A stretch of DNA of 64,000 nt from Burkholderia vietnamiensis LMG 10929 (lineage in GTDB: Bacteria; Pseudomonadota; Gammaproteobacteria; Burkholderiales; Burkholderiaceae). The stretch lies in NCBI RefSeq assembly GCF_000959445.1, contig NZ_CP009630.1:1364001-1428000 (forward strand). Reading direction: 5' to 3'. Under the pieces are notes generated by a model that was not told where the DNA came from, did not search any database, and was given only the letters and a program-made list of their open reading frames with translations. The position numbers and the translations under genes are program-made. Below, one piece after another: positions 23,921 to 35,547 of this stretch; positions within the stretch are counted from its first letter, which is position 1, and each line of letters begins with the position of its first letter.

Positions 23921-25435
23921 TCAGACCTTCATCGAGCCGGTGCGCACGAAGCGCTCGTGCCACGACAGCGACTCGGCGAGCAGATGCGGCGTGTGCTTGC
24001 CGAAGCTCTCGCGCGACGCGCGCTCGAAGTAGTCCTCGAGCATCGGCCGGTAATCCGGGTGCGCGCAGTTCGCGATGATCTTGCGCGCGCGCTGCTTCGG
24101 CGACAGGCCGCGCAGATCGGCGAGGCCCTGCTCGGTGACGACCACCGCGACGTCGTGCTCGGTATGATCGACGTGGCTCGCCATCGGCACGATCCGCGAG
24201 ATCGCGCCGCCCTTCGCGGTACTGGCCGACATGAAGCACGACAGATAGCCGTTGCGCGCGAAGTCGCCCGAGCCGCCGATGCCGTTCTGGATCTTCGTAC
24301 CCATCACGTGCGTCGAGTTCACGTTGCCGTAGATGTCGGCTTCGATCATCCCGTTCATCGCGATGCAGCCGAGGCGGCGCACGAGTTCCGGATGGTTGCT
24401 GATCTCCTGCGGACGCAGCAGGATCTTTTCGCGGAACGTCGCGATCTCGTCGGCGAAACGCTGCACGGCCGGCGGGCTCAGCGACAGCGCGGTGGCCGAC
24501 GCGAAGCTCAGCGTGCCGTCGTCGAGCAGGTCGAGCATGCCGTCCTGGATCACCTCGGTGTACGCGGTGAGGTTCGAGAAGCCGGCCGTGCTCAGTTCGG
24601 CGAGCACCGCGTTGGTGATGTTGCCGACGCCCGACTGCAGCGGCAGCAGGTTTTCCGGCAGCCGGCCGCGCTTCACTTCATGACGCAGGAAGTCGATCAG
24701 TTGCGTCGCGATCTGCTTCGACGTGGCGTCCGGTGCGGAGAACGCGTTGCTGCGATCGGGCGCGTCGGTTTCGACGATCGCGACGATCTTCTCGGCCGGG
24801 CAGCGCAGGTACGGTTCGCCGATGCGGTCGTCGCTCTTCGTGAGCGGAATCGGCTTGCGGTGCGGCGGCAGCGCGGTGCCGTAATAGACGTCGTGCATCC
24901 CGTCCAGGCCGAGCGGCTGGCGCGAGTTGACTTCGAGGATCACGTGCTTGGCTTGCTCCAGCCACGTCTTGTTGTTGCCGATCGACGCGGACGGAATCAG
25001 CAGGCCGTCCTCGCGGATGCCCGCGACTTCGACGATCGCGACGTCGAGATCGCCGTACAGGCCGAACCATGCGTACTGGGCGACGTGGCTCAGGTGGACG
25101 TCCTGGTAATCGACTTCGCCGTTGTTGATCTTGTCGCGCAGCGTCGGGTCGGACTGGTACGGCAGACGCATCGAGATGCCGTCGGTGCGGGCGAGCGCGC
25201 CGTCGAGTTCAGGCGCGGTCGACGCGCCCGTCAGCACGTTGATCCGGAACGTTTCGCCGCGGGCGTGGGCCGCCTCGATGTGCGCGGCGAGCGCGGCCGG
25301 CACGGCCTTCGGATAGCCGGAGCCGGTGAAGCCGCTCATCGCGACGGTCATGCCGGGACGGATCATCGCGGCGGCTTCGTCGGCGGTGCGGACGAGCGAA
25401 CGCAAAGCGGGAGCAAGGATGCGTGAAGAAGACAT
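23921..25435 (-). CDS. Acetyl-CoA hydrolase/transferase family (succinyl-CoA:acetate CoA-transferase type)
   Basis: A 504-residue class I CoA-transferase (Ach1/Cat1/AarC family). These enzymes move CoA between succinate, acetate and propionate; some are listed as acetyl-CoA hydrolases. The conserved glycine-rich loop is NGIGGSGDFARNG near residue 395 and the nearby EADIYGNVNSTHVMGTK is a family hallmark. The catalytic glutamate is expected in VVVTEQGLADLRG or the preceding segment; I did not resolve it. Start ATG 25435 (MSSSRILAPALR) is close to the family N-terminus; the longer frame upstream is not protein-like. The gene has its own long upstream region. Confidence 0.88.
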   Translation of the reverse strand: MSSSRILAPALRSLVRTADEAAAMIRPGMTVAMSGFTGSGYPKAVPAALAAHIEAAHARGETFRINVLTGASTAPELDGALARTDGISMRLPYQSDPTLRDKINNGEVDYQDVHLSHVAQYAWFGLYGDLDVAIVEVAGIREDGLLIPSASIGNNKTWLEQAKHVILEVNSRQPLGLDGMHDVYYGTALPPHRKPIPLTKSDDRIGEPYLRCPAEKIVAIVETDAPDRSNAFSAPDATSKQIATQLIDFLRHEVKRGRLPENLLPLQSGVGNITNAVLAELSTAGFSNLTAYTEVIQDGMLDLLDDGTLSFASATALSLSPPAVQRFADEIATFREKILLRPQEISNHPELVRRLGCIAMNGMIEADIYGNVNSTHVMGTKIQNGIGGSGDFARNGYLSCFMSASTAKGGAISRIVPMASHVDHTEHDVAVVVTEQGLADLRGLSPKQRARKIIANCAHPDYRPMLEDYFERASRESFGKHTPHLLAESLSWHERFVRTGSMKV

Positions 25436-26080
25436 GGCTATATATCTGAAGCTTCTGGTCTGTCGTTGACGTCGCGGGGGGTGTCTCCTGAGCGACGCGA
25501 AGCCCTTGGGGCCGCGAGGGCGGCCCGGCACCACGGGCACGGTCCGAGTATCGCAGACGCCGTCGTCGCGAAATGTCAGCCCGAATGAAAAAGATTCTTG
25601 CCGGATGCGCCTGATATCGAACGGCACTTCTGTGTCAGTCGGTCGTAATTCGACCGAATGCGACAGAAAGGCATTAGAAAGAAAACGGCCATTCTCGCCC
25701 GGACAGCTTACGAAATGCTGAACGTCGACCGAGCGAAAACCGTCCGGATCCGGCGTCGGCAACCGGGCAATCCGCGCACGCCGAGCGCTTCGCGAATCGC
25801 TGCTGCGAATTGTCGCGCGGCGCCCCATCCCGACCCGTGACCGAGATCAAAGCCGCACGCCCGCGCGGATCCGCGCCGAGCGCCGCTGCGCGGCCCGCCG
25901 GCCCTTGACGGCGGCGCCCGGCGAACCCCGCTGGAACCGGTACGATCCGCAGGCGGGAACGTCAATTCACGGGCCCGGATTACAACTGGCCAACACCCGG
26001 AATACTCCATAACACAGGCACATGTCAGGACATTGGTCCAAGGAAAAGCAACAAATTACAATTCCGTATATATTTCGCCG
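25436..26080. other. Divergent gap between CoA-transferase and phosphonate operon
   Basis: 645 bp without a convincing gene. The first 100 bases are the leader of the CoA-transferase gene, and AT-richer patches around 25570-25700 may hold its promoter on the minus strand. From 25980 the sequence is AT-rich and holds the plus-strand promoter of the phosphonate operon (separate entry). No regulator gene for the phosphonate operon is present. Confidence 0.45.
26033..26062 (+). promoter_or_regulatory. Candidate promoter of the phosphonate-lipid operon
   Basis: TTGGTC (26033-26038) and TACAAT (26057-26062) are 18 bp apart. Transcription would begin near 26069, only about a dozen bases before ATG 26081, and that short leader has no Shine-Dalgarno sequence. 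Either the first gene is translated from a very short leader or the true promoter is further upstream. Confidence 0.5.
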
Positions 26081-26836
26081 ATGGACCAAAGAAAAACCGC
26101 CAACCGTTCCGAGCCCCCCCTGCCCCGCACCTGGGATGCGCGGCTCGCGCGCGCGCTCGTCCGACCGCTGATCGACACGCCCGTTACCCCCAACCACCTC
26201 ACCACCCTGCGCCTGCTGATCGGCGTCGCGGGCGCGTGGTGCCTCGCGCAAGGCGGCTTCGGCTGGATCAACGCCGGCGCGCTGCTGATCGTGCTGTCCA
26301 ACTTCGTCGACCATACCGATGGCGAGCTCGCCCGCATCAGCGGCAAGTCGAGCAAGATCGGTCACTTTTACGACCTCGCCGCCGATGCGCTCGTCACGGT
26401 CGCGCTGTTCGTGAGCATGGGCGTCGGCGTCGTCGCACAGGGCGGCCAGATGATCGCGTCGCCGGTGCTGCTGGGCGCCGCGGCCGGCGCGGCCGTCGCG
26501 CTGATCTTCTTCCTGCGGATGCGGATCGAATCGATCGCCGGCAAGGCAGGCACCAAACAGGCATTCGCGGGCGGCTTCGAGACCGAAGACGTCCTCTACC
26601 TGCTGCCGCTCGTCACGCTCGTCGACGGCGTGCAGCCGTTCCTGCTCGCGGCGTCGATCGGCGCGCCGCTGTTCGCCGCATGGGTCGTGATCGATTGGTG
26701 GCGCGTCGTGCGCCGCGACGGCGCCGCGCAATCGAACGCCGCGCCGCAGGTCTTCATGTCCCCGTCGAGCGGCCGCGCACGCAGCGACAGGCCGGGCGGC
26801 ACTCAAAATCAAACTGAAATCCAGGCTTCCAAATGA
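26081..26836 (+). CDS. CDP-alcohol phosphatidyltransferase, proposed AEP-lipid synthase
   Basis: Integral membrane enzyme of the CDP-alcohol phosphatidyltransferase superfamily (251 residues), which joins a CDP- or CMP-linked group to an alcohol such as diacylglycerol. The signature DGxxARx8GxxxDxxxD is complete: Asp77, Asp80-Gly81, Ala84-Arg85, Gly94, Asp98, Asp102. Several hydrophobic segments surround it. As first gene of an operon for 2-aminoethylphosphonate, it is the natural candidate for transferring AEP from CMP-AEP to diacylglycerol to form a phosphonolipid, by analogy with ethanolamine phosphotransferase. That substrate is inferred. ATG 26081 lacks a clear Shine-Dalgarno site. It overlaps the next gene (ATGA). 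Confidence 0.85.
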   Translation: MDQRKTANRSEPPLPRTWDARLARALVRPLIDTPVTPNHLTTLRLLIGVAGAWCLAQGGFGWINAGALLIVLSNFVDHTDGELARISGKSSKIGHFYDLAADALVTVALFVSMGVGVVAQGGQMIASPVLLGAAAGAAVALIFFLRMRIESIAGKAGTKQAFAGGFETEDVLYLLPLVTLVDGVQPFLLAASIGAPLFAAWVVIDWWRVVRRDGAAQSNAAPQVFMSPSSGRARSDRPGGTQNQTEIQASK

Positions 26837-27642
26837 CTTCTAGCACGCGCGACGACTCCGTGCTGAGCCCGGCACGCCCCGCGCCTGCGCGCGCGGCGGC
26901 GGCCGATCCCGATCGCACCGTGGCCGACTGCGTCGGCCGTCTCGACGTCGATCGCCTGCGCGGCGACTACACGCGCCAGGGATCGTTCCTGTATCTGGAC
27001 AGCTTCCTGCCGCCCGACGCGCACGCGAAACTCGCGGCCGCCGCACGCGCGATGCAGGCCGGCCTGAACCGCAATTACCTGCCCGGCCACAAGCAGGGCG
27101 GCAGCGTGAGCCGGCACACGATCGACGAACAGGCGCCGTACATCGCCGAGCTGTACCGCTCGAAGGCGCTGATCGGCTTCCTCGAGAAAATCACCGGCGA
27201 CAAGCTGATGCTGTCGCCGGACGACGATCCGCACGCTTACGCGCTGTACTACTACACGAAGCCGGGCGACCACATCGGCTGGCACTACGACACGTCGTAC
27301 TACGACGGCCGCCGCTACACGCTGCTGTTCGGCGTGATCGACGATTCGACGTGCCGGCTCGACTACGAACTGCACACCCGCAACCCGGACGTGCCCGACG
27401 AAGCGGGCTCCGTGCAGATCGCCGACGGCGGCATCGTGCTGTTCGACGGCGACAAGCTGCGCCATCGCGTCACCCCGCTCGGCCAGAACGAGATGCGCGT
27501 GTCCCTCACGTTCGAATACGTGACCAATCCCGGCATGCGGCCGTGGAAGCGCTTCGTCTCGAACATGAAGGACGCGATCGCCTATTTCGGCTTCCGCCAG
27601 GTGTTCAAGCAGCTGGCGACGCGACGCGCGACCGGGTCATGA
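26833..27642 (+). CDS. 2-oxoglutarate/Fe(II)-dependent oxygenase
   Basis: A 269-residue 2OG-Fe(II) dioxygenase. Metal ligands are His151 and Asp153 in HIGWHYDTSYYDGRRYT and distal His211 in DKLRHRVTPL; Arg222 in EMRVSLTFEY is placed to bind the 2OG carboxylate. The core is preceded by an Ala-rich N-terminus of about 40 residues. Embedded in an AEP-lipid operon, it could hydroxylate AEP at C1 (1-hydroxy-AEP is known in other organisms), the phosphonolipid headgroup, or an acyl chain as LpxO and Ols enzymes do. The sequence does not decide between these. Both ends overlap neighbours by ATGA. Confidence 0.88.
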   Translation: MTSSTRDDSVLSPARPAPARAAAADPDRTVADCVGRLDVDRLRGDYTRQGSFLYLDSFLPPDAHAKLAAAARAMQAGLNRNYLPGHKQGGSVSRHTIDEQAPYIAELYRSKALIGFLEKITGDKLMLSPDDDPHAYALYYYTKPGDHIGWHYDTSYYDGRRYTLLFGVIDDSTCRLDYELHTRNPDVPDEAGSVQIADGGIVLFDGDKLRHRVTPLGQNEMRVSLTFEYVTNPGMRPWKRFVSNMKDAIAYFGFRQVFKQLATRRATGS

Positions 27643-28640
27643 CACGCGCTGGCCTGATCCTGCTGTCCGTCGGAACGGCATTGTTCGTCGCGCTGCTCGC
27701 GTGGCAAGGCGTCGGCGCGGTCGCGTCGACGTTCCTCGCGGCCGGCTGGGGCCTCGCGCTCGTCGCGGCGTTCCACGTCGTGCCGCTCGTGATCGACGCG
27801 CTGGCGATCTCGGCGATGTTCCGCCGCGGCCAGCCCGGCGCCGCGCTCGGCAACGCGCTGCGCGCGCGCTGGGTCGGCGAATCGGTGAACAGCCTGCTGC
27901 CGGCCGGTCAGATCGGCGGCCCCGTGCTGATGGTGCGCTACCTCGCGCAGCGCGGCACGCGGATGGCCGACGCGGCCGCCACGGTCACCGTCAGCACGAC
28001 GATGCAGGCGCTCGCGCAGATGGCGTTCGCGTTGATCGGCATCGCCGCGTTCAGCGCGTATGCGACGCACGAATCGGTCACGCACCTGCGCACGCCGGCG
28101 CTGATCGCCACCGGCGTGCTCGGCGCGCTCGCCGTCGCGTTCTACGCGGCGCAGCGGCGCGGGCTGTTCGGCCGCGGCATGCGTCTCGCGTCGAAGCTGC
28201 TCGGCCCACGCGACTGGTCGTCGCTCGCGACGCGCGCCGACGCGATCGACCACGCGGTCGGCGCGCTGTACCGCGATCGCGCGAAGGTCGCGAAGACCTT
28301 CGCACTGAGCCTCGTCGGCTGGATCGTCGGCACCGCCGAGGTGTGGCTCGCGCTGCACTTCCTCGGCCACCCGGTCAGCTGGCTCGACGCACTGCTGCTC
28401 GAGAGCGTCGGCCAGGCGATCCGCGGCGCCGCGTTCGCGATTCCCGGCTCGCTCGGCGCGCAGGAAGGCGGTTATCTGCTGCTCGCGCCGCTGGTCGGAC
28501 TGCCGCCCGACGCGGCGCTCGCGCTGTCGCTCGCGAAGCGCGCGCGCGAACTCGCGCTCGGCCTGCCCGGCCTGCTCTATCTGCATTTCAGTGAAAGAAA
28601 CTGGCAACGGCGCCATGCGCCGCAGCCGCTCGCCGACTGA
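27639..28640 (+). CDS. HpnL/YbhN-type multipass membrane protein (LPG synthase TM family), putative lipid flippase
   Basis: A 333-residue protein with about eight hydrophobic segments, of the lysylphosphatidylglycerol synthase TM region/UPF0104 family that includes HpnL. Characteristic segments are WVGESVNSLLPAGQIGGPVLMVRYL, the SLVGWIVGTAEVWLALHFLG block and the C-terminal FAIPGSLGAQEGGYLLLAPL. Members are linked to moving lipids across or between membranes. In this operon it may flip or export the phosphonolipid. It overlaps the oxygenase gene by ATGA and is followed after about 35 bases by the nucleotidyltransferase gene. Confidence 0.83.
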   Translation: MTRAGLILLSVGTALFVALLAWQGVGAVASTFLAAGWGLALVAAFHVVPLVIDALAISAMFRRGQPGAALGNALRARWVGESVNSLLPAGQIGGPVLMVRYLAQRGTRMADAAATVTVSTTMQALAQMAFALIGIAAFSAYATHESVTHLRTPALIATGVLGALAVAFYAAQRRGLFGRGMRLASKLLGPRDWSSLATRADAIDHAVGALYRDRAKVAKTFALSLVGWIVGTAEVWLALHFLGHPVSWLDALLLESVGQAIRGAAFAIPGSLGAQEGGYLLLAPLVGLPPDAALALSLAKRARELALGLPGLLYLHFSERNWQRRHAPQPLAD

Positions 28641-28675
28641 TCGTTCAGATCGCCGGCTTTTTGGTTGGAGAACCC

Positions 28676-29443
28676 ATGCGAGCCATCATTCTTGCGGCAG
28701 GCCTCGGCTTGCGCCTGCAACAACCACCCGAGGCGCAATTTCCGAAATGCCTGCTGCGCTTCGACGACGTGTCGCTGCTCGAGCGCCATCTGCGCGTGCT
28801 CGACGCCGCGGGCGTCGATGAAATCGTGCTCGGGCTCGGCTTCCAGGCCGCGAAGGTCGAACAGGAATTGAAGCGCCTCGGCCGCAGCGCCGAGATCGTG
28901 CTGAACGAGCGCTACGACCTCGGCAGCGTGCTGACCGTGCACACCGTCGCCGACGCGATGACGCGCGGCGGCGACGTGCTGCTGATGGACGCCGACGTGC
29001 TGTACGACGAGAACATCCTGCACGCGCTGGTGGCGAACGCGGACCGCCCGGTCGATCGCCTGCTGATCGATCGCGACTTCGAGGCCGGCGACGAGCCCGT
29101 CAAGCTGTGCCTGAAGAACGGCGTGCCGGTGGAACTGCGCAAACAGCTCGCAGTCGATCTCGACTACGACACGATCGGCGAATCGGTCGGCTTCTTCCGC
29201 TTCACCGAGGCCACCGCGCGCCGCCTCGCGACGATCGTCGCCGGCTACGTCGACAGCGGCCGCGCGAACCTGCCGCACGAGGAAGCCGTCCGCGATCTGC
29301 TGCTCGAGGGCGGCCATTCGTTCGACGTCGCCGACGTCACCGGCATGCCGTGGATCGAGATCGACTTCCCGAACGACGTCGCACGCGCGACCCAAGACAT
29401 CCTTCCCCTGATCCAACGCACGACCGCAGGAGCCGCACGATGA
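28676..29443 (+). CDS. Stand-alone nucleotidyltransferase, PntC-like CTP:AEP cytidylyltransferase candidate
   Basis: A 255-residue NTP_transferase/MobA-like protein. It begins [25 protein letters not shown], a version of the LAAGxGxRL-PK nucleotide-binding loop, has the metal-binding [10 protein letters not shown] segment near residue 102, and ends [13 protein letters not shown], equivalent to the GxWxDVDxxxD motif. In bacteria PntC enzymes activate AEP as CMP-AEP and lie beside pepM genes, so that role is likely here. ATG 28676 has a TTGGAG site. It overlaps the next gene by ATGA. A second such domain is fused to the mutase, so the division of labour is open. Confidence 0.85.
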
Positions 29444-31125
29444 ACGCACGCGAACCCAACTTCTCCGAATCGCGCAGCGCGCGACTGCGCCGCATGCTGG
29501 TCAGCGACCAGCTCGAGTTCCTGATGGAAGCGCACAACGGCCTGTCGGCACGGATCGTCCGCGAAGCCGGCTTCAAGGGGATCTGGGCGTCGGGCCTCGC
29601 GATCTCCGCGCAATTCGGCGTGCGCGACAACAACGAGGCGAGCTGGACCCAGGTCGTCGACGTGCTCGAGTTCATGGCCGACGCGAGCGACCTGCCGATC
29701 CTGCTCGACGGCGACACCGGCTACGGCAACTTCAACAACGTGCGCCGCCTCGTGAAGAAGCTCGAGCAGCGCGGCATCGCCGGCGTGTGCATCGAGGACA
29801 AGCAGTTCCCGAAGACCAACAGCTTCATCGACGGCGAGCGCCAGCCGCTCGCCGAGATCGAAGAATTCTGCGGCAAGATCAAGGCCGGCAAGGATTCGCA
29901 GAGCGACCCCGACTTCTCGATCGTCGCGCGCGTCGAGGCGCTGATCGCCGGCTGGGGGATGGACGAGGCGCTGCGCCGCGCGAACGCGTATGCCGAAGCC
30001 GGCGCCGACGCGATCCTGATCCACAGCAAGCTGTCGCGCCCCGACGAGATTCTGCAGTTCGCGCGCGAATGGAGCGGCAAAGCCCCGCTCGTGATCGTGC
30101 CGACCAAGTACTACAGCACGCCGACCGACGTGTTCCGCCAGGCCGGCATCAGCACCGTGATCTGGGCGAACCATCTGATCCGCGCGTCGGCCTCCGCGAT
30201 GCAGGCCGTCGCACGCGAGATCCACGAGAACGAAACGCTGATCAACGTCGAGGACCGCGTCGCGTCGGTCAACGAGATCTTCCGCCTGCAGGACGCCGAC
30301 GAATACTCGGCGGCCGAGCGCATCTACCTGTCGTCGTCGTCGCGTGCGTCGAACGCCGCGATCGTGCTCGCCGCGAGCCGCGGCAAGGGGCTCGAGGCCG
30401 TCACCGAGGACAAGCCCAAGGTCATGCTGCCGGTCGCCGGCAAGCCGCTGCTGCGCTGGCTCGTCGACGGCTTCAAGAAGCATGGCGTGAACGACATCAC
30501 CGTGGTCGGCGGCTATCGCGCCGACGCGATCGACACGTCGGGCATCAAGCTGGTCGTGAACGAGCGCCATGCGCAGACGGGCGAGCTCGCGTCGCTCGCA
30601 TGCGCGGCCGAACGCCTGACCGGCGACACCGTGATCTCGTACGGCGACCTGCTGTTCCGCAGCTACATCCTGCGCGACCTCGCGGAGAGCGAGGCGGAGT
30701 TCAGCGTCGTCGTCGATTCGTCGCTGACCGAAACCAACCAGAGCGTGCGCGACTTCGCGCTGTGCTCGGCGGCCGACGATCGCGGGCTGTTCGGCCAGAA
30801 GACGTATCTGCAACGCGTGTCGAGCGACGTTGCCGCCGGCGCGCCGCACGGCCGCTGGATCGGCTTGCTGAACGTGCGCGGCGCGGGCGTCGAGCGGCTG
30901 AAGGCGATGCTCGCAACGCTGCAGGCGCGCGCCGACTTCGACACGCTCGACATCCCGTCGCTGCTCAACGAGCTGATCGCCGCCGGCGAGAAGATCGAAG
31001 TGCAGTACGTGCACGGCCACTGGCGCGGCGTCAACGATCTCGAAGACTTCCGTCGCGCGGGCGACTTCGCGCACGGCCAGACGCCGCTGTCGGAGCCGGG
31101 CACCGCCAACGGAGGCGCGCAATGA
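29440..31125 (+). CDS. aepX: Phosphoenolpyruvate mutase fused to a second nucleotidyltransferase domain
   Basis: PEP mutase converts phosphoenolpyruvate to phosphonopyruvate, the step that makes the C-P bond. Residues about 1-300 form the mutase TIM barrel: [13 protein letters not shown] (metal site) and the diagnostic [11 protein letters not shown] near residue 119, which separates mutases from methylisocitrate lyases. Residues about 306-561 form an NTP_transferase domain: [40 protein letters not shown], and [15 protein letters not shown]. The loop glycine that follows LAA in the family motif is serine here, but other residues are kept. Mutase-nucleotidyltransferase fusions occur in other phosphonate clusters. 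Both ends overlap neighbours by ATGA. Confidence 0.93.
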
Positions 31126-32303
31126 TCGAAGCGGCGCAGTTCGTCGAGGCCGCGCGCGAGCGCGGGTTCGACTGGTACGCGGGCGTGCCGTGCTCCTACC
31201 TGACGCCGTTCATCAACTACGTGCTGCAGGATCCGACGCTGCATTACCTGTCGGCGGCCAACGAAGGCGACGCGGTCGCACTGATCGCCGGCGCGACGCT
31301 CGGCGGCAAGCGCGGCATCGCAATGATGCAGAACTCGGGCCTCGGCAACGCCGTGAGCCCGCTCACGTCGTTGACGTGGACGTTCCGGCTGCCGCAGCTG
31401 CTGATCGTCACGTGGCGCGGCCAGCCGGGCGTGCCCGACGAGCCGCAGCATGCGCTGATGGGGCCGATCACGCCGGCGATGCTCGACACCATGGAGATCC
31501 CGTGGGAGACGTTCCCGACCGACCCCGAACAGGTCGGCCCGGCGCTCGACCGCGCGGTCGCGCACATGGACGCGACGGGCCGTCCGTACGCGCTCGTGAT
31601 GCAGAAAGGCAGCGTCGCGTCGTATGAGTTGAAGGCGAACCCGGCGGCCGCGCCGCGCGCGCACGTCGCCGCGCAGTCGGGCGCGCGCGCCGCATCGCCG
31701 GCCGCGTGGCCGACGCGCCACGACGCGTTGCAGCGCGTGATCGCGCATACGCCGGTCGATTCGACCGTCGTGCTCGCGTCGACCGGCTTCTGCGGCCGCG
31801 AGCTGTATGCGATCGACGATCGGCCGAACCAGCTGTACATGGTCGGCTCGATGGGCTGCGTGACGCCGCTCGCGCTCGGTCTTGCGCTCGCGCGCCCGGA
31901 CCTGCGCGTGGTGGCCGTCGACGGCGACGGCGCCGCGCTGATGCGCATGGGCGTGTTCGCGACGCTCGGCACCTATGGGCCGTCGAACCTCACGCACGTG
32001 CTGCTCGACAACGGCGCGCACGAATCGACGGGCGGTCAGGCGACCGTCTCGCAGCATGTGTCGTTCGCGGGCGTGGCTGCCGCGTGCGGTTACGCGTCGG
32101 CCGTCGAGGGCGACACGCTCGACGTGCTCGATGCGACGCTCGCGGCGCAGGCCGACGGCGCACAGTTCGTACGGGTCGCGATCCGCACCGGTGTGCCCGA
32201 CGGGCTGCCCCGCCCGACCGTCACGCCAGTCGAAGTGAAGACGCGCCTGATGCGGCATATCGGCGCCGCACGGACCGAAGCCCACGTTGAAGGAGCCCAT
32301 TGA
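31122..32303 (+). CDS. aepY: Phosphonopyruvate decarboxylase
   Basis: ThDP-dependent enzyme that decarboxylates phosphonopyruvate to phosphonoacetaldehyde and pulls the unfavourable mutase reaction forward. A 393-residue single-chain form with the PYR half first ([17 protein letters not shown] contains the conserved ThDP glutamate) and the PP half second, with the metal/diphosphate motif [11 protein letters not shown] near residue 267 through [13 protein letters not shown]. The ATG overlaps the mutase stop and the TGA overlaps the next ATG. A linker (about residues 170-205) is Ala-rich. Function follows from family and from its place between mutase and transaminase. Confidence 0.93.
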
Positions 32304-33367
32304 TGCTGCTGCTCAATCCCGGCCCGGTCACGCTCAGCGAACGCGTGCGCCGCAGCCTGCTGCAACCGGACCTGTGCCATCGCGAAAGCGAATTCTTCGA
32401 TCTGCAGGACGAGGCGCGCGCGCGGCTCGTCGCCGCGTATGAGCTCGATCCGGCCGAATGGGCCGCCGTGCTGATGACCGGCTCGGGCACCGCCGCCGTC
32501 GAAAGCATGATCGCGGCGCTCGTGCCGCAGGACGGCAAGCTGCTCGTGATCGAGAACGGCGTATATGGCGAGCGCATCACGCAGATCGCGACGCAGTACG
32601 GGATCGCGCACGACGTGCTGAAGCACGAATGGATGCAGGCGCCCGATGTCGCGGAAGTCGCCGCGCGGCTCGACGCGGGCGGCTATTCGCACGTCGCGGT
32701 GATTCATCATGAGACGACGACGGGCCGGTTGAACGATCTCGGTGCGATCGCCGACGTGTGCCGTGCCCGCGGCGTGAGGATGCTCGTCGATGGCGTGAGC
32801 AGCTTCGGCGCCGAGGCGATCGACTTCGGCGGCGGCGTGATCGATGCCGTTGCCGCGACCGCGAACAAGTGCCTGCACGGCGTGCCCGGTGCCGCGTTCG
32901 TGATCGTGCGTCGCAGCGCGCTCACGAAGGCCGCGAGCCGGACTTACTATCTCGATCTCGGCCGGCTGGCGAAGCTGCAGGATCAGCGCAATACGCCGTT
33001 TACGCCTTCGGTGCATGCGTATTACGCGCTCGTCGAAGCGTTGCGCGAGTTCGACGAAGCCGGCGGCTGGCGCGCGCGGCATGCGCGTTACAAGGCGCTC
33101 GCCGATCAGGTTCAGGCCGGGCTCGCCGCACGAGGGATGCCGCTGGTGTTGCCTGACGGTGAATCGTCGGTCGTGTTGCGTGCGTACCGGTTGCCGCAGG
33201 GCGTGGCGTATGAAGCGCTGCACGACGGGTTGAAGGCGCGCGGGTTCGTCATCTATGCCGGGCAAGGCGGGTTGTCGAAGGAGCTGTTCCGCATCTCGAC
33301 GATGGGCGCGATCGAGGCCGCGGATGTCGAGCGGTTGCTGGAGGGGTTTACGGCGTTGACGCGGTGA
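32303..33367 (+). CDS. phnW: 2-aminoethylphosphonate transaminase (biosynthetic direction)
   Basis: Class V PLP aminotransferase (354 residues) interconverting phosphonoacetaldehyde and 2-aminoethylphosphonate. The family opening LLLNPGPVTLSERVR is present and the PLP lysine is Lys189 in TANKCLHGVPGAAFV. With PEP mutase and decarboxylase upstream it works in synthesis, as AepZ/PhnW enzymes do; no phosphonoacetaldehyde hydrolase, the usual catabolic partner, is adjacent. ATG 32303 follows an AAGGAG site; its A is shared with the stop of the decarboxylase. Last gene of the operon, followed by a terminator at 33395. Confidence 0.92.
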   Translation: MLLLNPGPVTLSERVRRSLLQPDLCHRESEFFDLQDEARARLVAAYELDPAEWAAVLMTGSGTAAVESMIAALVPQDGKLLVIENGVYGERITQIATQYGIAHDVLKHEWMQAPDVAEVAARLDAGGYSHVAVIHHETTTGRLNDLGAIADVCRARGVRMLVDGVSSFGAEAIDFGGGVIDAVAATANKCLHGVPGAAFVIVRRSALTKAASRTYYLDLGRLAKLQDQRNTPFTPSVHAYYALVEALREFDEAGGWRARHARYKALADQVQAGLAARGMPLVLPDGESSVVLRAYRLPQGVAYEALHDGLKARGFVIYAGQGGLSKELFRISTMGAIEAADVERLLEGFTALTR

Positions 33368-33394
33368 GTGGTGGTTGCAGGTTGCGTCAAGGAA

Positions 33395-33416
33395 AAGGCC
33401 CGTGAGGGCCTTTTTT
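33395..33416 (+). terminator. Rho-independent terminator of the phosphonate operon
   Basis: AAGGCCC (33395-33401), loop GTGA, GGGCCTT (33406-33412), continuing into a T-run to 33416. It separates the phosphonate operon from the arsenic operon. Confidence 0.9.
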
Positions 33417-33465
33417 GTTGGGTAGTCGATCTTGAACGAATCGAGCAGACCGGACAAACACCTTG

Positions 33466-33500
33466 TTGCTCCCGCCCATCATTTCGACTATATTCGAAAT
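33466..33500 (+). promoter_or_regulatory. arsR promoter and dyad operator ending at the start codon
   Basis: TTGCTC (33466-33471) and TATATT (33489-33494) are 17 bp apart. Over the -10 lies a perfect dyad, ATTTCGA (33481-33487), CTATAT, TCGAAAT (33494-33500), whose last base touches the ATG of arsR at 33501. Transcription would begin at about the start codon, so arsR is probably translated from a leaderless transcript and repressed by its own product. Confidence 0.65.
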
Positions 33501-33824
33501 ATGGAAAACAAAGATGCTGTCCGCGCTTTCGCCGCGCTTGCTCACGAGCTGCGCCTGAACGTATTCAGGATGCTCGTCGTCGCAGGCCCGGCCGGATTGA
33601 CGCCCGGCGCCATCGCGGCGCAACTCGACATTCCCAACGCCACCCTCTCGTTCCATCTGAAGGAATTGACGAACGCGGCGCTCGTCACGCAGGAGCGCGA
33701 TGGCCGCAGCCTGATCTACCGAGCTGCCTTCGAGCAGATGAACGCGCTGCTCGGCTTTCTCACCGAGAACTGTTGCCGCGGCGAGCCGTGCGTCGCCGCG
33801 GCCGCCGATTCCTGCAAGTGCTGA
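33501..33824 (+). CDS. arsR: ArsR-family arsenite-responsive repressor
   Basis: A 107-residue winged-helix repressor of the arsenic operon. The helix-turn-helix covers LTPGAIAAQLDIPNATLSFH, with the wing QERDGRSLIYRA. The C-terminus is cysteine-rich (ENCCRGEPC, then SCKC), a site type that binds As(III) in the betaproteobacterial ArsR subgroup; the helix-3 CVC motif of E. coli ArsR is absent. No Shine-Dalgarno sequence precedes ATG 33501, and an operator-like dyad ends directly at it. First gene of the arsenic operon. Confidence 0.9.
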   Translation: MENKDAVRAFAALAHELRLNVFRMLVVAGPAGLTPGAIAAQLDIPNATLSFHLKELTNAALVTQERDGRSLIYRAAFEQMNALLGFLTENCCRGEPCVAAAADSCKC

Positions 33825-33836
33825 AGGATCACGTTC

Positions 33837-33950
33837 ATGAGACGGTTTTACATTCGCGCCGACATCCGCGCTCCGGCGGCCAGCGTCGCGGCAGCTCTGC
33901 GCCAACCCAACTTGTGCGCGACATCAGCAAGCGATAAGGCACGCCCGTGA
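33837..33950 (+). CDS. Short 37-residue ORF between arsR and arsC, possible decayed gene
   Basis: Reads MRRFYIRADIRAPAASVAAA followed by LRQPNLCATSASDKARP. It begins 13 bases after arsR, preceded by AAGGATCACG as a possible ribosome binding site, and its TGA overlaps the GTG start of arsC (GTGA), so translating it would couple arsR to arsC. The beginning M-R-R-F-x-I faintly resembles small glyoxalase-type arsenic proteins (ArsI), which start similarly, suggesting a truncated remnant. Chance or a pure coupling peptide is equally possible. Confidence 0.35.
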   Translation: MRRFYIRADIRAPAASVAAALRQPNLCATSASDKARP

Positions 33951-34444
33951 CGACGACCAACGTACTCATTCTCTGCACCCACAATTCCGCGCGCAGCGTG
34001 CTCGCCGAGGGCATGCTGAACCACTGGGCGCAGAAGCTCGGCAAGGATGTGCGCGCATATAGCGCCGGCAGCGCACCGAGCGGCCGGGTCAACCCGTTCG
34101 CGCTCGAAGCGCTCGCGAACGCGGGCGTCGATACGCGCGACTATCGCAGCAAAAGCTGGGACGAATTCGCAGCCGACGACGCACCGCGCATGCGCATCGT
34201 CATCACGGTGTGCGACAGCGCAGCCGCGGAACAATGTCCGTTCTGGCCGGGCGCTCCGGTCAAGGTCCACTGGGGCTATGCCGATCCGTCGAATGCGCCG
34301 GGCGGCGATGACGGCAAGCGGCAGGCGTTCGAACTCACGCGCGAGGCCATCGGCTATCGCATGCTGCAATTGCTCGCCCTTCCGCTCGACCGTCTGAGCG
34401 ATGCCGAACTCCTGCACGCGCTCGACGGCATCCTGAAAAGCTGA
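33947..34444 (+). CDS. arsC: Arsenate reductase, low-molecular-weight phosphatase type
   Basis: Reduces As(V) to As(III) using a cysteine cascade, in the cytoplasm. The nucleophile Cys10 sits in the phosphatase-like loop CTHNSARS (CX5R); Cys89 and Cys97 (TVCDSAAAEQCPFW) are placed to form the resolving disulfide as in the thioredoxin-coupled family. Length 165 residues. The start is GTG 33947, overlapping the end of the short ORF before it. The product feeds the ACR3 pump encoded next. Confidence 0.92.
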   Translation: MTTTNVLILCTHNSARSVLAEGMLNHWAQKLGKDVRAYSAGSAPSGRVNPFALEALANAGVDTRDYRSKSWDEFAADDAPRMRIVITVCDSAAAEQCPFWPGAPVKVHWGYADPSNAPGGDDGKRQAFELTREAIGYRMLQLLALPLDRLSDAELLHALDGILKS

Positions 34445-34467
34445 GCGCTCCTTTTGCGAATCGCCCC

Positions 34468-35547
34468 ATGACCGCTACCGACCTTACCGCTTCGAACAAG
34501 CCGCCCGCGAAGCCGCCCATCGGCTTCTTCGAGCGCTACCTCACCGTCTGGGTCGCGCTCTGCATCGTCGCCGGCGTCCTGGCCGGCCAGTTTTTCCCTG
34601 CGATGTTCCAGACGATTGGCCGCATGCAGTACGCGCAGGTCAATCTGCCCGTGGGCCTGCTGATCTGGGTGATGATCATCCCGATGCTCGTGAAGGTCGA
34701 CTTCGGATCGTTGCACGAGGTACGCCAGCACCTCAAGGGCATCGGCGTCACGCTGGTGGTGAACTGGCTCGTCAAACCCTTTTCGATGGCGTTGCTCGGC
34801 TGGCTGTTCATCAAGCACCTGTTCGCTCCGATGCTGCCTGCAGCGCAACTCGACAGTTACGTTGCGGGCCTCATCCTGCTGGCCGCCGCGCCCTGCACGG
34901 CGATGGTGTTCGTCTGGAGCCGGCTGACCGGCGGCGATCCGCTGTTCACGCTGTCGCAGGTGGCGCTCAACGACAGCATCATGGTGGTGGCCTTCGCGCC
35001 GCTTGTCGGCCTGTTGCTCGGCATCTCGGCCATCACGGTGCCCTGGGCGACGCTCTTCACTTCGGTCGTGCTCTATATCGTGATCCCGGTAGCCGTGGCG
35101 CAGTTGCTTCGCAAGGCGCTGCTCGCAAGAGGACAGGCAGCATTCGACGCAGCCATCGCGAAGATCGGCCCCTGGTCCATCACGGCGCTGCTCGCGACGC
35201 TCGTCCTGCTGTTCGCGTTCCAGGGCGCGGCCATCCTCGACCAGCCGCTCGTGATCGCGCTGCTCGCAGTACCGATCCTGATTCAGGTGTTCTTCAACTC
35301 GGCGCTCGCGTACTGGCTCAATCGCGCGGTGGGTGAAAAGCACAACGTGGCGTGCCCGTCCGCGCTGATCGGCGCATCCAATTTCTTCGAGCTGGCGGTC
35401 GCGGCGGCCATCAGCCTGTTCGGCTTCAATTCGGGCGCGGCGCTGGCCACCGTGGTGGGCGTGCTCATCGAAGTGCCGGTCATGCTGCTCGTGGTCCGTA
35501 TCGTCAACCGGACGAAGGACTGGTACGAGCGGGGTGATAGATGCTGA
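34468..35547 (+). CDS. arsB: ACR3-type arsenite efflux permease
   Basis: Ten-helix inner-membrane arsenite exporter of the Bile/arsenite/riboflavin transporter superfamily (359 residues). Family motifs visible: LAAAPCTAMVFVWSRLTGGD with the conserved cysteine, ALNDSIMVVAFAP, and NFFELAVAAAISLFG followed by VLIEVPVMLLVV. Start ATG 34468 is 23 bases after arsC. With ArsA encoded downstream, arsenite export may be energised by ATP as well as by membrane potential. It is unrelated to E. coli-type ArsB despite shared naming. Confidence 0.94.
   Translation: MTATDLTASNKPPAKPPIGFFERYLTVWVALCIVAGVLAGQFFPAMFQTIGRMQYAQVNLPVGLLIWVMIIPMLVKVDFGSLHEVRQHLKGIGVTLVVNWLVKPFSMALLGWLFIKHLFAPMLPAAQLDSYVAGLILLAAAPCTAMVFVWSRLTGGDPLFTLSQVALNDSIMVVAFAPLVGLLLGISAITVPWATLFTSVVLYIVIPVAVAQLLRKALLARGQAAFDAAIAKIGPWSITALLATLVLLFAFQGAAILDQPLVIALLAVPILIQVFFNSALAYWLNRAVGEKHNVACPSALIGASNFFELAVAAAISLFGFNSGAALATVVGVLIEVPVMLLVVRIVNRTKDWYERGDRC

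Follow-up and report, generated by a model that had tools for sequence, protein, structure and literature searches.

Known clusters and the present locus

A gene cluster predicted to direct phosphonolipid synthesis in a lichen Nostoc is presented in the legend of Fig. 7 of PMC5987646 (2018), where a homologous Burkholderia cluster is also shown. The parts named in that legend are a CDP-alcohol phosphatidyltransferase, a 2-oxoglutarate (2OG)-Fe(II) oxidase, hpnL, a nucleoside triphosphate (NTP) transferase, pepM, ppd and a 2-aminoethylphosphonate (AEP) transaminase; the abbreviations include HAEP (1-hydroxy-2-aminoethylphosphonate) and DAG (diacylglycerol), and the pathway is adapted from Yu et al. 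(2013, PNAS). Activation of AEP is described for the PntC-AEPT of Treponema denticola, for which the passages available of PMC6697681 report AEP cytidylyltransferase activity and a structure in complex with CMP-AEP (CMP, cytidine monophosphate); according to the same source, a nucleotidyltransferase fused to Ppm is accompanied by a separate one close by in three of the Pnt clusters drawn there. HAEP is found in a sphingophosphonolipid of Bdellovibrio stolpii (Watanabe 2001, as cited in PMC8154272), the enzyme PbfA is specific for R-HAEP (PMC8154272), and a different Burkholderia phosphonate, flavophos, is the subject of PMC12871164. Here, we analyzed a seven-gene operon of Burkholderia vietnamiensis LMG 10929, located at positions 26081-33367 of a stretch of 64,000 nucleotides of contig NZ_CP009630.1 (the window, to which all positions refer). 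The host genome comprises 6.93 Mb in 4 contigs, with the window on contig 2.

The operon and its phosphonolipid reading are a known prediction. An earlier note on the DNA had considered the gene combination uncharacterised in Burkholderia, which holds for the product as far as our search reached, but not for the cluster and the proposal, both already in print (PMC5987646, as far as its legend goes). No experimental phosphonolipid was announced for Burkholderia or its kin in the titles and abstract openings covered by our search, which took in little of the subscription literature. Our analysis adds co-occurrence of the genes despite their separation in one genus, duplication of the NTP transferase gene, a hydroxylase-type triad in the oxygenase, genomes that lack PepM, and a conserved element before the first ATG.

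We interpret the locus as an operon of two modules that together direct the synthesis of a hydroxylated aminophosphonolipid, with a rough probability of 0.6. In the first module, a PepM-NTP fusion protein, phosphonopyruvate decarboxylase (Ppd) and the transaminase would convert phosphoenolpyruvate (PEP) to AEP. In the second module, a BesD-fold oxygenase would act on free or CMP-bound AEP to give HAEP, a stand-alone PntC-like enzyme would use cytidine triphosphate (CTP) to make the CMP-aminophosphonate, the phosphotransferase would pass the aminophosphonate moiety of this CMP donor to a lipid of the diacylglycerol type, and the resulting product would be carried across the membrane by the HpnL-type protein. 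Module 1 rests on strong family assignment, whereas the steps of module 2 are those that we infer. A phosphonolipid is the best-supported product; that it replaces phosphatidylethanolamine, as had been proposed, is not shown by anything found here.

Operon organization

The following features make up the operon and its end.

26081-26836, + strand: CDP-alcohol phosphotransferase (cdpOH), 251 aa; PF01066 55.5 bits, cut-off 22
26833-27642, + strand: 2OG-Fe(II) oxygenase of BesD/HalD fold, 269 aa, with intact HxD...H triad
27639-28640, + strand: HpnL-type membrane protein (LPG_synthase_TM), 333 aa; TIGR03476 374.4 bits, cut-off 195.65
28676-29443, + strand: stand-alone PntC-like nucleotidyltransferase, 255 aa; PF12804 51.7 bits, cut-off 27
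29440-31125, + strand: PepM-NTP fusion gene, 561 aa
29485-30300, + strand: PEP mutase domain of the fusion; TIGR02320 407.5 bits, cut-off 319.55
30355-31125, + strand: C-terminal nucleotidyltransferase domain of the fusion; PF12804 50.5 bits, cut-off 27
31122-32303, + strand: Ppd, 393 aa; TIGR03297 481.1 bits, cut-off 312.5
32303-33367, + strand: AEP transaminase, 354 aa; TIGR03301 396.3 bits, cut-off 360.8
33392-33415, + strand: intrinsic terminator hairpin, 10-bp stem followed by a T run

The seven genes are arranged head to tail, and nearly all of them overlap. ATGA overlaps occur at four junctions (26833, 27639, 29440 and 31122) and a TGATG overlap at one (32301-32305, between Ppd and AEP transaminase); the sole intergenic gap, of 35 bp, lies between the genes for the membrane protein and the nucleotidyltransferase. 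All seven reading frames are open, with a GC content at third codon positions of 0.84-0.93. The terminator was not listed by a simple consensus scan; a 37-nt stretch folds there at -18.3 kcal/mol (z -3.75), and 0 of 200 shuffles were as good. Gene order, overlaps and terminal hairpin, all described before from the letters, are borne out by open reading frame coordinates and folding, and the gene families then named agree with the Pfam and NCBIfam profile matches. Since the GC content of the operon (0.688) is close to that of the window (0.683), composition gives no sign of recent import. The arrangement is not due to chance, because the same seven genes are found together in 30 of 80 named pepM loci, namely 27 of L006-L033 (without L023) and L076, L081 and L083.

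Predicted AEP synthesis and activation

Synthesis of AEP from PEP by PepM, Ppd and the transaminase can be predicted with near certainty, because the three enzymes pass curated cut-offs. The PEP mutase motif EDKxxxxxNS is present in all 89 sequences, that of the window among them, and the PepM protein is, in the best segment, 98% identical to those of Burkholderia latens and B. territorii, which points to a Burkholderia close to the cepacia group. Translation of the transaminase could also begin at TTG 32300.

The two nucleotidyltransferases noticed earlier are both present, but they are not alike, the stand-alone enzyme being canonical and the fused domain lacking the loop arginine. The best solved relative of the former is T. 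denticola PntC-AEPT (6pd1, E-value 1.1e-10, residues 2-246), and its residues G9, G11, R13, K24, D105, D107, E228 and D230 are found in 57 of 57 sequences. It is probably a CTP:aminophosphonate cytidylyltransferase that provides the CMP-activated form. The fused domain has LicC (1jyk, E-value 3.7e-14) as its nearest solved relative. At fusion residues 309-320, an altered loop replaces the usual LAAGxGxRL; it reads ASRGKGL in 68 of 89 sequences and is a close variant in the others, and the arginine of GxGxR is absent in 89 of 89. Lys327, Asp403 and Asp533 are kept in 88 of 88 relatives.

Oxygenase

Orthologues for the alignments were taken from loci L006-L138 (exclusive of L086-L115 and of L001-L005) at no less than 50% identity, with the match covering 75% of the query or more; the same species may recur via different sources. 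The HxD...H triad of the oxygenase is kept in all 50 orthologues, and so is its Asp153, which aligns with a glycine of HalD (7u6h). In halogenases of this type, glycine (or alanine) replaces the triad aspartate. The Pfam match is to HalD, and NCBI uses the name 'HalD/BesD family halogenase' (for example for P0001, P0007 and P0013). We considered a BesD/HalD halogenase and rejected this assignment, as the triad aspartate is retained and the halogenase-defining substitution is absent. Judging from the conserved triad, the NCBI name is probably wrong for this oxygenase clade.

The halogenase names would also fit a diffusible phosphonate natural product, perhaps halogenated, as the output of the operon. 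We regard this as very improbable, because the HalD glycine is an aspartate here, because it is hard to see what a soluble product would need a membrane-lipid transferase and an HpnL-type protein for, and because the genes are present in 40 of the 41 same-genus genomes shown, unlike an accessory natural product.

Among solved structures, the closest folds to the oxygenase model are HalA, HalB, HalD and BesD, with the best fit to the BesD group. Members of this fold group use small free amino compounds as substrates; for this reason, we prefer AEP, either free or bound to CMP, to an acyl chain as the target of the oxygenase. We lean towards hydroxylation of the aminophosphonate head group, most likely at C1, which would yield HAEP.

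Proposed lipid transfer and flipping

The phosphotransferase contains a complete DxxDGxxAR(x8)GxxxDxxxD sequence, the CDP-alcohol phosphotransferase motif, and so do all 50 orthologues (D77, D80, G81, A84, R85, G94, D98 and D102). As the host genome encodes three further PF01066 members, housekeeping phospholipid synthesis is not required of the operon enzyme. We consider it likely that this protein is a CMP-aminophosphonate:diacylglycerol phosphonotransferase, with a lipid as acceptor. The membrane protein, which also matches PF03706 (94.8 bits, cut-off 33.4), may be a lipid flippase, an assignment to which we give even odds.

Members of the CDP-alcohol phosphotransferase superfamily take varied acceptors. 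The AEP or HAEP could then go to a glycan (lipopolysaccharide or capsule), with the phosphotransferase using a sugar-lipid intermediate that is flipped by the membrane protein. Characterised PntC systems do adjoin LicD-like or glycosyltransferase genes (PMC6697681, in the passages available). Among the seven genes of the operon, however, there is no LicD or glycosyltransferase gene (other neighbours were not systematically annotated), and the type of transferase together with the HpnL-type protein points to membrane lipids. A glycan as destination is therefore unlikely in our view.

Co-occurrence of the two modules

In order to follow the genes across the family, three of them (oxygenase, phosphotransferase and fused mutase) were searched in an even draw of 299 genomes, own genome included, with E-value thresholds of 1e-10, 1e-20 and 1e-100, respectively. 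The oxygenase was detected in 179, the phosphotransferase in 180 and the fused mutase in 174 genomes. All three genes were present in 173 genomes, none in 119, and only a part in 7, so that the check on whether the genes travel together, suggested in the earlier note, came out favourably for the three that were searched. The exceptions are six genomes with oxygenase and phosphotransferase, but no mutase (G065, G143, G173, G219, G242 and G272), and one with mutase and phosphotransferase, but no oxygenase (G215). The assemblies of G173, G272 and G215 are highly fragmented (430-640 contigs), and the piece of G215 (L138) shows fragments of several operon genes. Inside gene-bearing genera, the three genes are jointly absent from G223, G026, G007, G028 and G010.

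Apart from the 30 complete loci, 49 of the 80 named pepM loci are without phosphotransferase, oxygenase and hpnL in the available flank (some flanks are short), and the remaining one (L023) is a contig fragment, cut at the contig ends. Around the oxygenase, 6 of 20 chosen regions contain all seven genes, and 14 contain a four-gene block (cdpOH-oxygenase-hpnL-NTP) without pepM. All 14 block-only regions belong to one genus (g20), which by inference is Paraburkholderia. In this split genus, the operon is divided into a four-gene and a three-gene locus, and both halves are usually kept; P. xenovorans LB400 is among the strains with separated modules, its three-gene locus lying at 10001-13999 of L038 and its four-gene block at 1136-4388 of L160. 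The pepM loci had suggested loss of the lipid genes in Paraburkholderia, an explanation that was discarded once whole-genome searches located the genes elsewhere.

The stand-alone NTP transferase gene is duplicated in some of these genomes. It was searched in ten genomes (nine Paraburkholderia and one Burkholderia sp.), chosen so that six had a full gene of this type beside pepM and four did not. Two copies were found in those six genomes and one copy in the other four, and a copy lies inside the four-gene block in 10 of 10. In the most parsimonious account, the ancestral operon was divided with its NTP transferase gene duplicated, and where a copy was then lost, the one on the phosphotransferase side was retained. 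Retention beside the phosphotransferase fits a direct relation between the maker and the user of the donor. In one of the four single-copy genomes, a 52-residue match to the stand-alone enzyme just before pepM (L084, 9831-9986) is perhaps a remnant of a lost duplicate.

Outside the family, matches to the oxygenase are rare. The oxygenase was found in 5 of 250 genomes of an order sample, 3 of them from the same family (one being the window's own genome), and in 3 of 299 genomes of a phylum sample, which are the same three. In G324, from another family, the genes for oxygenase, stand-alone NTP transferase, PepM, Ppd, transaminase and phosphotransferase follow one another. A membrane protein gene adjoins this cluster on the opposite strand; its product scores above the cut-off for Pfam LPG_synthase_TM, and its match to HpnL stays under the threshold (144.7 versus 195.65 bits). 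All seven functions are thus present, in an order different from that of the window. The G324 oxygenase is in two frames (L144, 6000-6719 and 6020-6313), in a draft assembly, from sequencing error or decay. The second genome outside the family, G460, has a distant oxygenase-like gene (33% identity); its 13.3-kb region yielded no other operon gene, and the genome as a whole neither Ppd nor a close PepM.

Evidence against an aminophosphonolipid

Several observations weigh against our interpretation. The contacts of PntC to the AEP amine, Glu104 and Glu196, are not cleanly conserved in the stand-alone enzyme: Glu104 aligns with Asp105, and Glu196 falls into a poorly aligned stretch beside Glu202 and Glu203, both present in 57 of 57 sequences. 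The NCBIfam models nearest to the phosphotransferase describe archaetidylinositol- and inositol-phosphate enzymes, and its matches to all of them fall far short of the cut-offs. HpnL is named for the hopanoid pathway, not for phosphonolipids, and the mean predicted local distance difference test score of the oxygenase model is 68. Raw co-occurrence is inflated by relatedness, as the genomes are not independent, and three of the five named same-genus absences (G007, G028 and G010) concern reduced 1.2-Mb genomes; among the joint absences, only G223 and G026 carry much weight. Finally, four members of the split genus (G065, G143, G219 and G242) have phosphotransferase and oxygenase, but neither PepM nor Ppd, and contain only mutase-superfamily relatives of about 30% identity. 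The whole four-gene block with intact catalytic residues is found in G065, G219 and G242; matches in G143 are weaker (oxygenase 4.1e-70, phosphotransferase 7.1e-22).

A block without PepM and Ppd implies either scavenging of aminophosphonate or another substrate of the block. In the latter case, the four genes would make some other CDP-alcohol-derived lipid, built for example from inositol phosphate, phosphoethanolamine or a further amino alcohol phosphate. The AEP genes would then form an independent pathway, linked to the block by chance in many genomes. The four genomes, the three whole blocks among them and the separation of the modules in the split genus speak for this, and the best NCBIfam matches of phosphotransferase and stand-alone NTP transferase include the inositol-phosphate pair, albeit below cut-off. 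Against this stand the distribution of the modules (genes of both or of neither in nearly all of the 299 genomes, as given above), the single cluster with both modules in another family, and the AEP cytidylyltransferase as best solved relative of the NTP enzyme. We judge another lipid to be quite unlikely. The gene functions and the lipid logic of the phosphonolipid scheme, as first put forward in the note, remain best supported, whereas the four genomes without PepM are left unexplained by it.

With scavenging, the scheme could be extended. The four-gene block would then be a self-standing hydroxylated-aminophosphonolipid unit that is usually fed by PepM, some Paraburkholderia would have lost PepM and Ppd and would salvage AEP or HAEP, the oxygenases would be new BesD-fold aminophosphonate hydroxylases, and soil Burkholderiaceae would be a large unrecognised source of the HAEP degraded by other bacteria. 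We offer this extension tentatively and consider it doubtful as a whole. When an AEP importer (TIGR03261) was sought as the feed of PepM-less strains, 9 of 9 genomes gave sub-cut-off matches only.

Upstream element and neighbouring genes

One non-coding feature precedes the operon.

26056-26076, + strand: conserved non-coding element TTACAATTCCGTATATATTTC, ending 4 bases 5' of the first ATG

In an alignment of the window with 26 loci from L006-L033 (27 rows), 19 of the 21 columns of the element are identical, and the sequence diverges further upstream. Followed by GCCG, the element abuts the ATG at 26081 (stretch 26056-26080), without a clear ribosome-binding site. It has one match in the window at up to 2 mismatches, versus 0.01 expected by chance. 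The split genus has a related element, CCCGTATATATTTC, 5' of its four-gene block (2-4 mismatches). Within 4 mismatches, the element was not found at the available separate pepM loci of that genus, nor in the seven-gene loci L076, L081 and L083. A consensus promoter scan found none at 26056-26076. The element may serve as the core promoter of a transcript with almost no leader. All 27 rows share the ATG at 26081. We rejected an N-terminal extension of the phosphotransferase from TTG 26033, because in L006 the added frame is interrupted by a stop codon.

Genes of other function flank the operon. Directly downstream (33432-35547), an ArsR-type regulator, an arsenate-reductase-like protein (72.6 bits, below the cut-off of 174.3) and an ACR3 arsenite efflux transporter (388.9 bits, cut-off 282.8) are encoded. 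ArsR had no match in the 80 named loci, so the arsenic cluster seems to be a neighbour of the operon in few strains. Upstream and divergent (23921-25426, - strand) is a gene for a succinyl-CoA:acetate CoA-transferase of ScpC type, which is kept upstream of the operon in L006-L032, except for the short L023.

Significance and comparison with known systems

If the interpretation is true, many Burkholderiaceae carry lipids with a C-P bond that phospholipases cannot cleave, and their membrane lipids store phosphorus in a reduced form. It would also open phosphonolipid function to genetic study, name a source of HAEP, and correct the function of the many proteins that currently bear the halogenase label. 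As the modules are apart in the split genus, P. xenovorans LB400 included, each half could be deleted separately.

Inositol-phosphate cytidylyltransferases (IPCT) of MobA-like type work together with a CDP-alcohol phosphotransferase (DIPPS) that uses a soluble CMP donor. The window resembles the IPCT/DIPPS system in the pairing of a MobA-like cytidylyltransferase with a CDP-alcohol phosphotransferase. It differs in that the genes are separate, far below the family cut-off, and in an AEP gene neighbourhood. With the BesD and HalD halogenases and the hydroxylase homologues, the oxygenase shares the fold and weak sequence similarity; the retained triad aspartate leads one to expect hydroxylase chemistry instead of halogenation, and the substrate is presumably a phosphonate.

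The Bdellovibrio stolpii lipid has hydroxylated AEP as the head group of a membrane lipid, as proposed here, but is a sphingolipid (as cited in PMC8154272). In the Pnt pathway of T. denticola and A. rimae, AEP is, as predicted here, made and activated to CMP-AEP, with fused and separate nucleotidyltransferases, but LicD-like or glycosyltransferase genes take the place of the CDP-alcohol phosphotransferase, oxygenase and HpnL-type protein found here (PMC6697681, in the passages available). As to the Nostoc cluster of PMC5987646, all seven parts listed in the legend are present in the window, whereas the 'unk' genes and higBA of the legend are not among the seven. The 4+3 split, the NTP transferase duplication and the genomes without PepM do not figure in the available passages of that paper; as far as seen, the split, the duplicated cytidylyltransferase and the four PepM-less genomes appear to be new.

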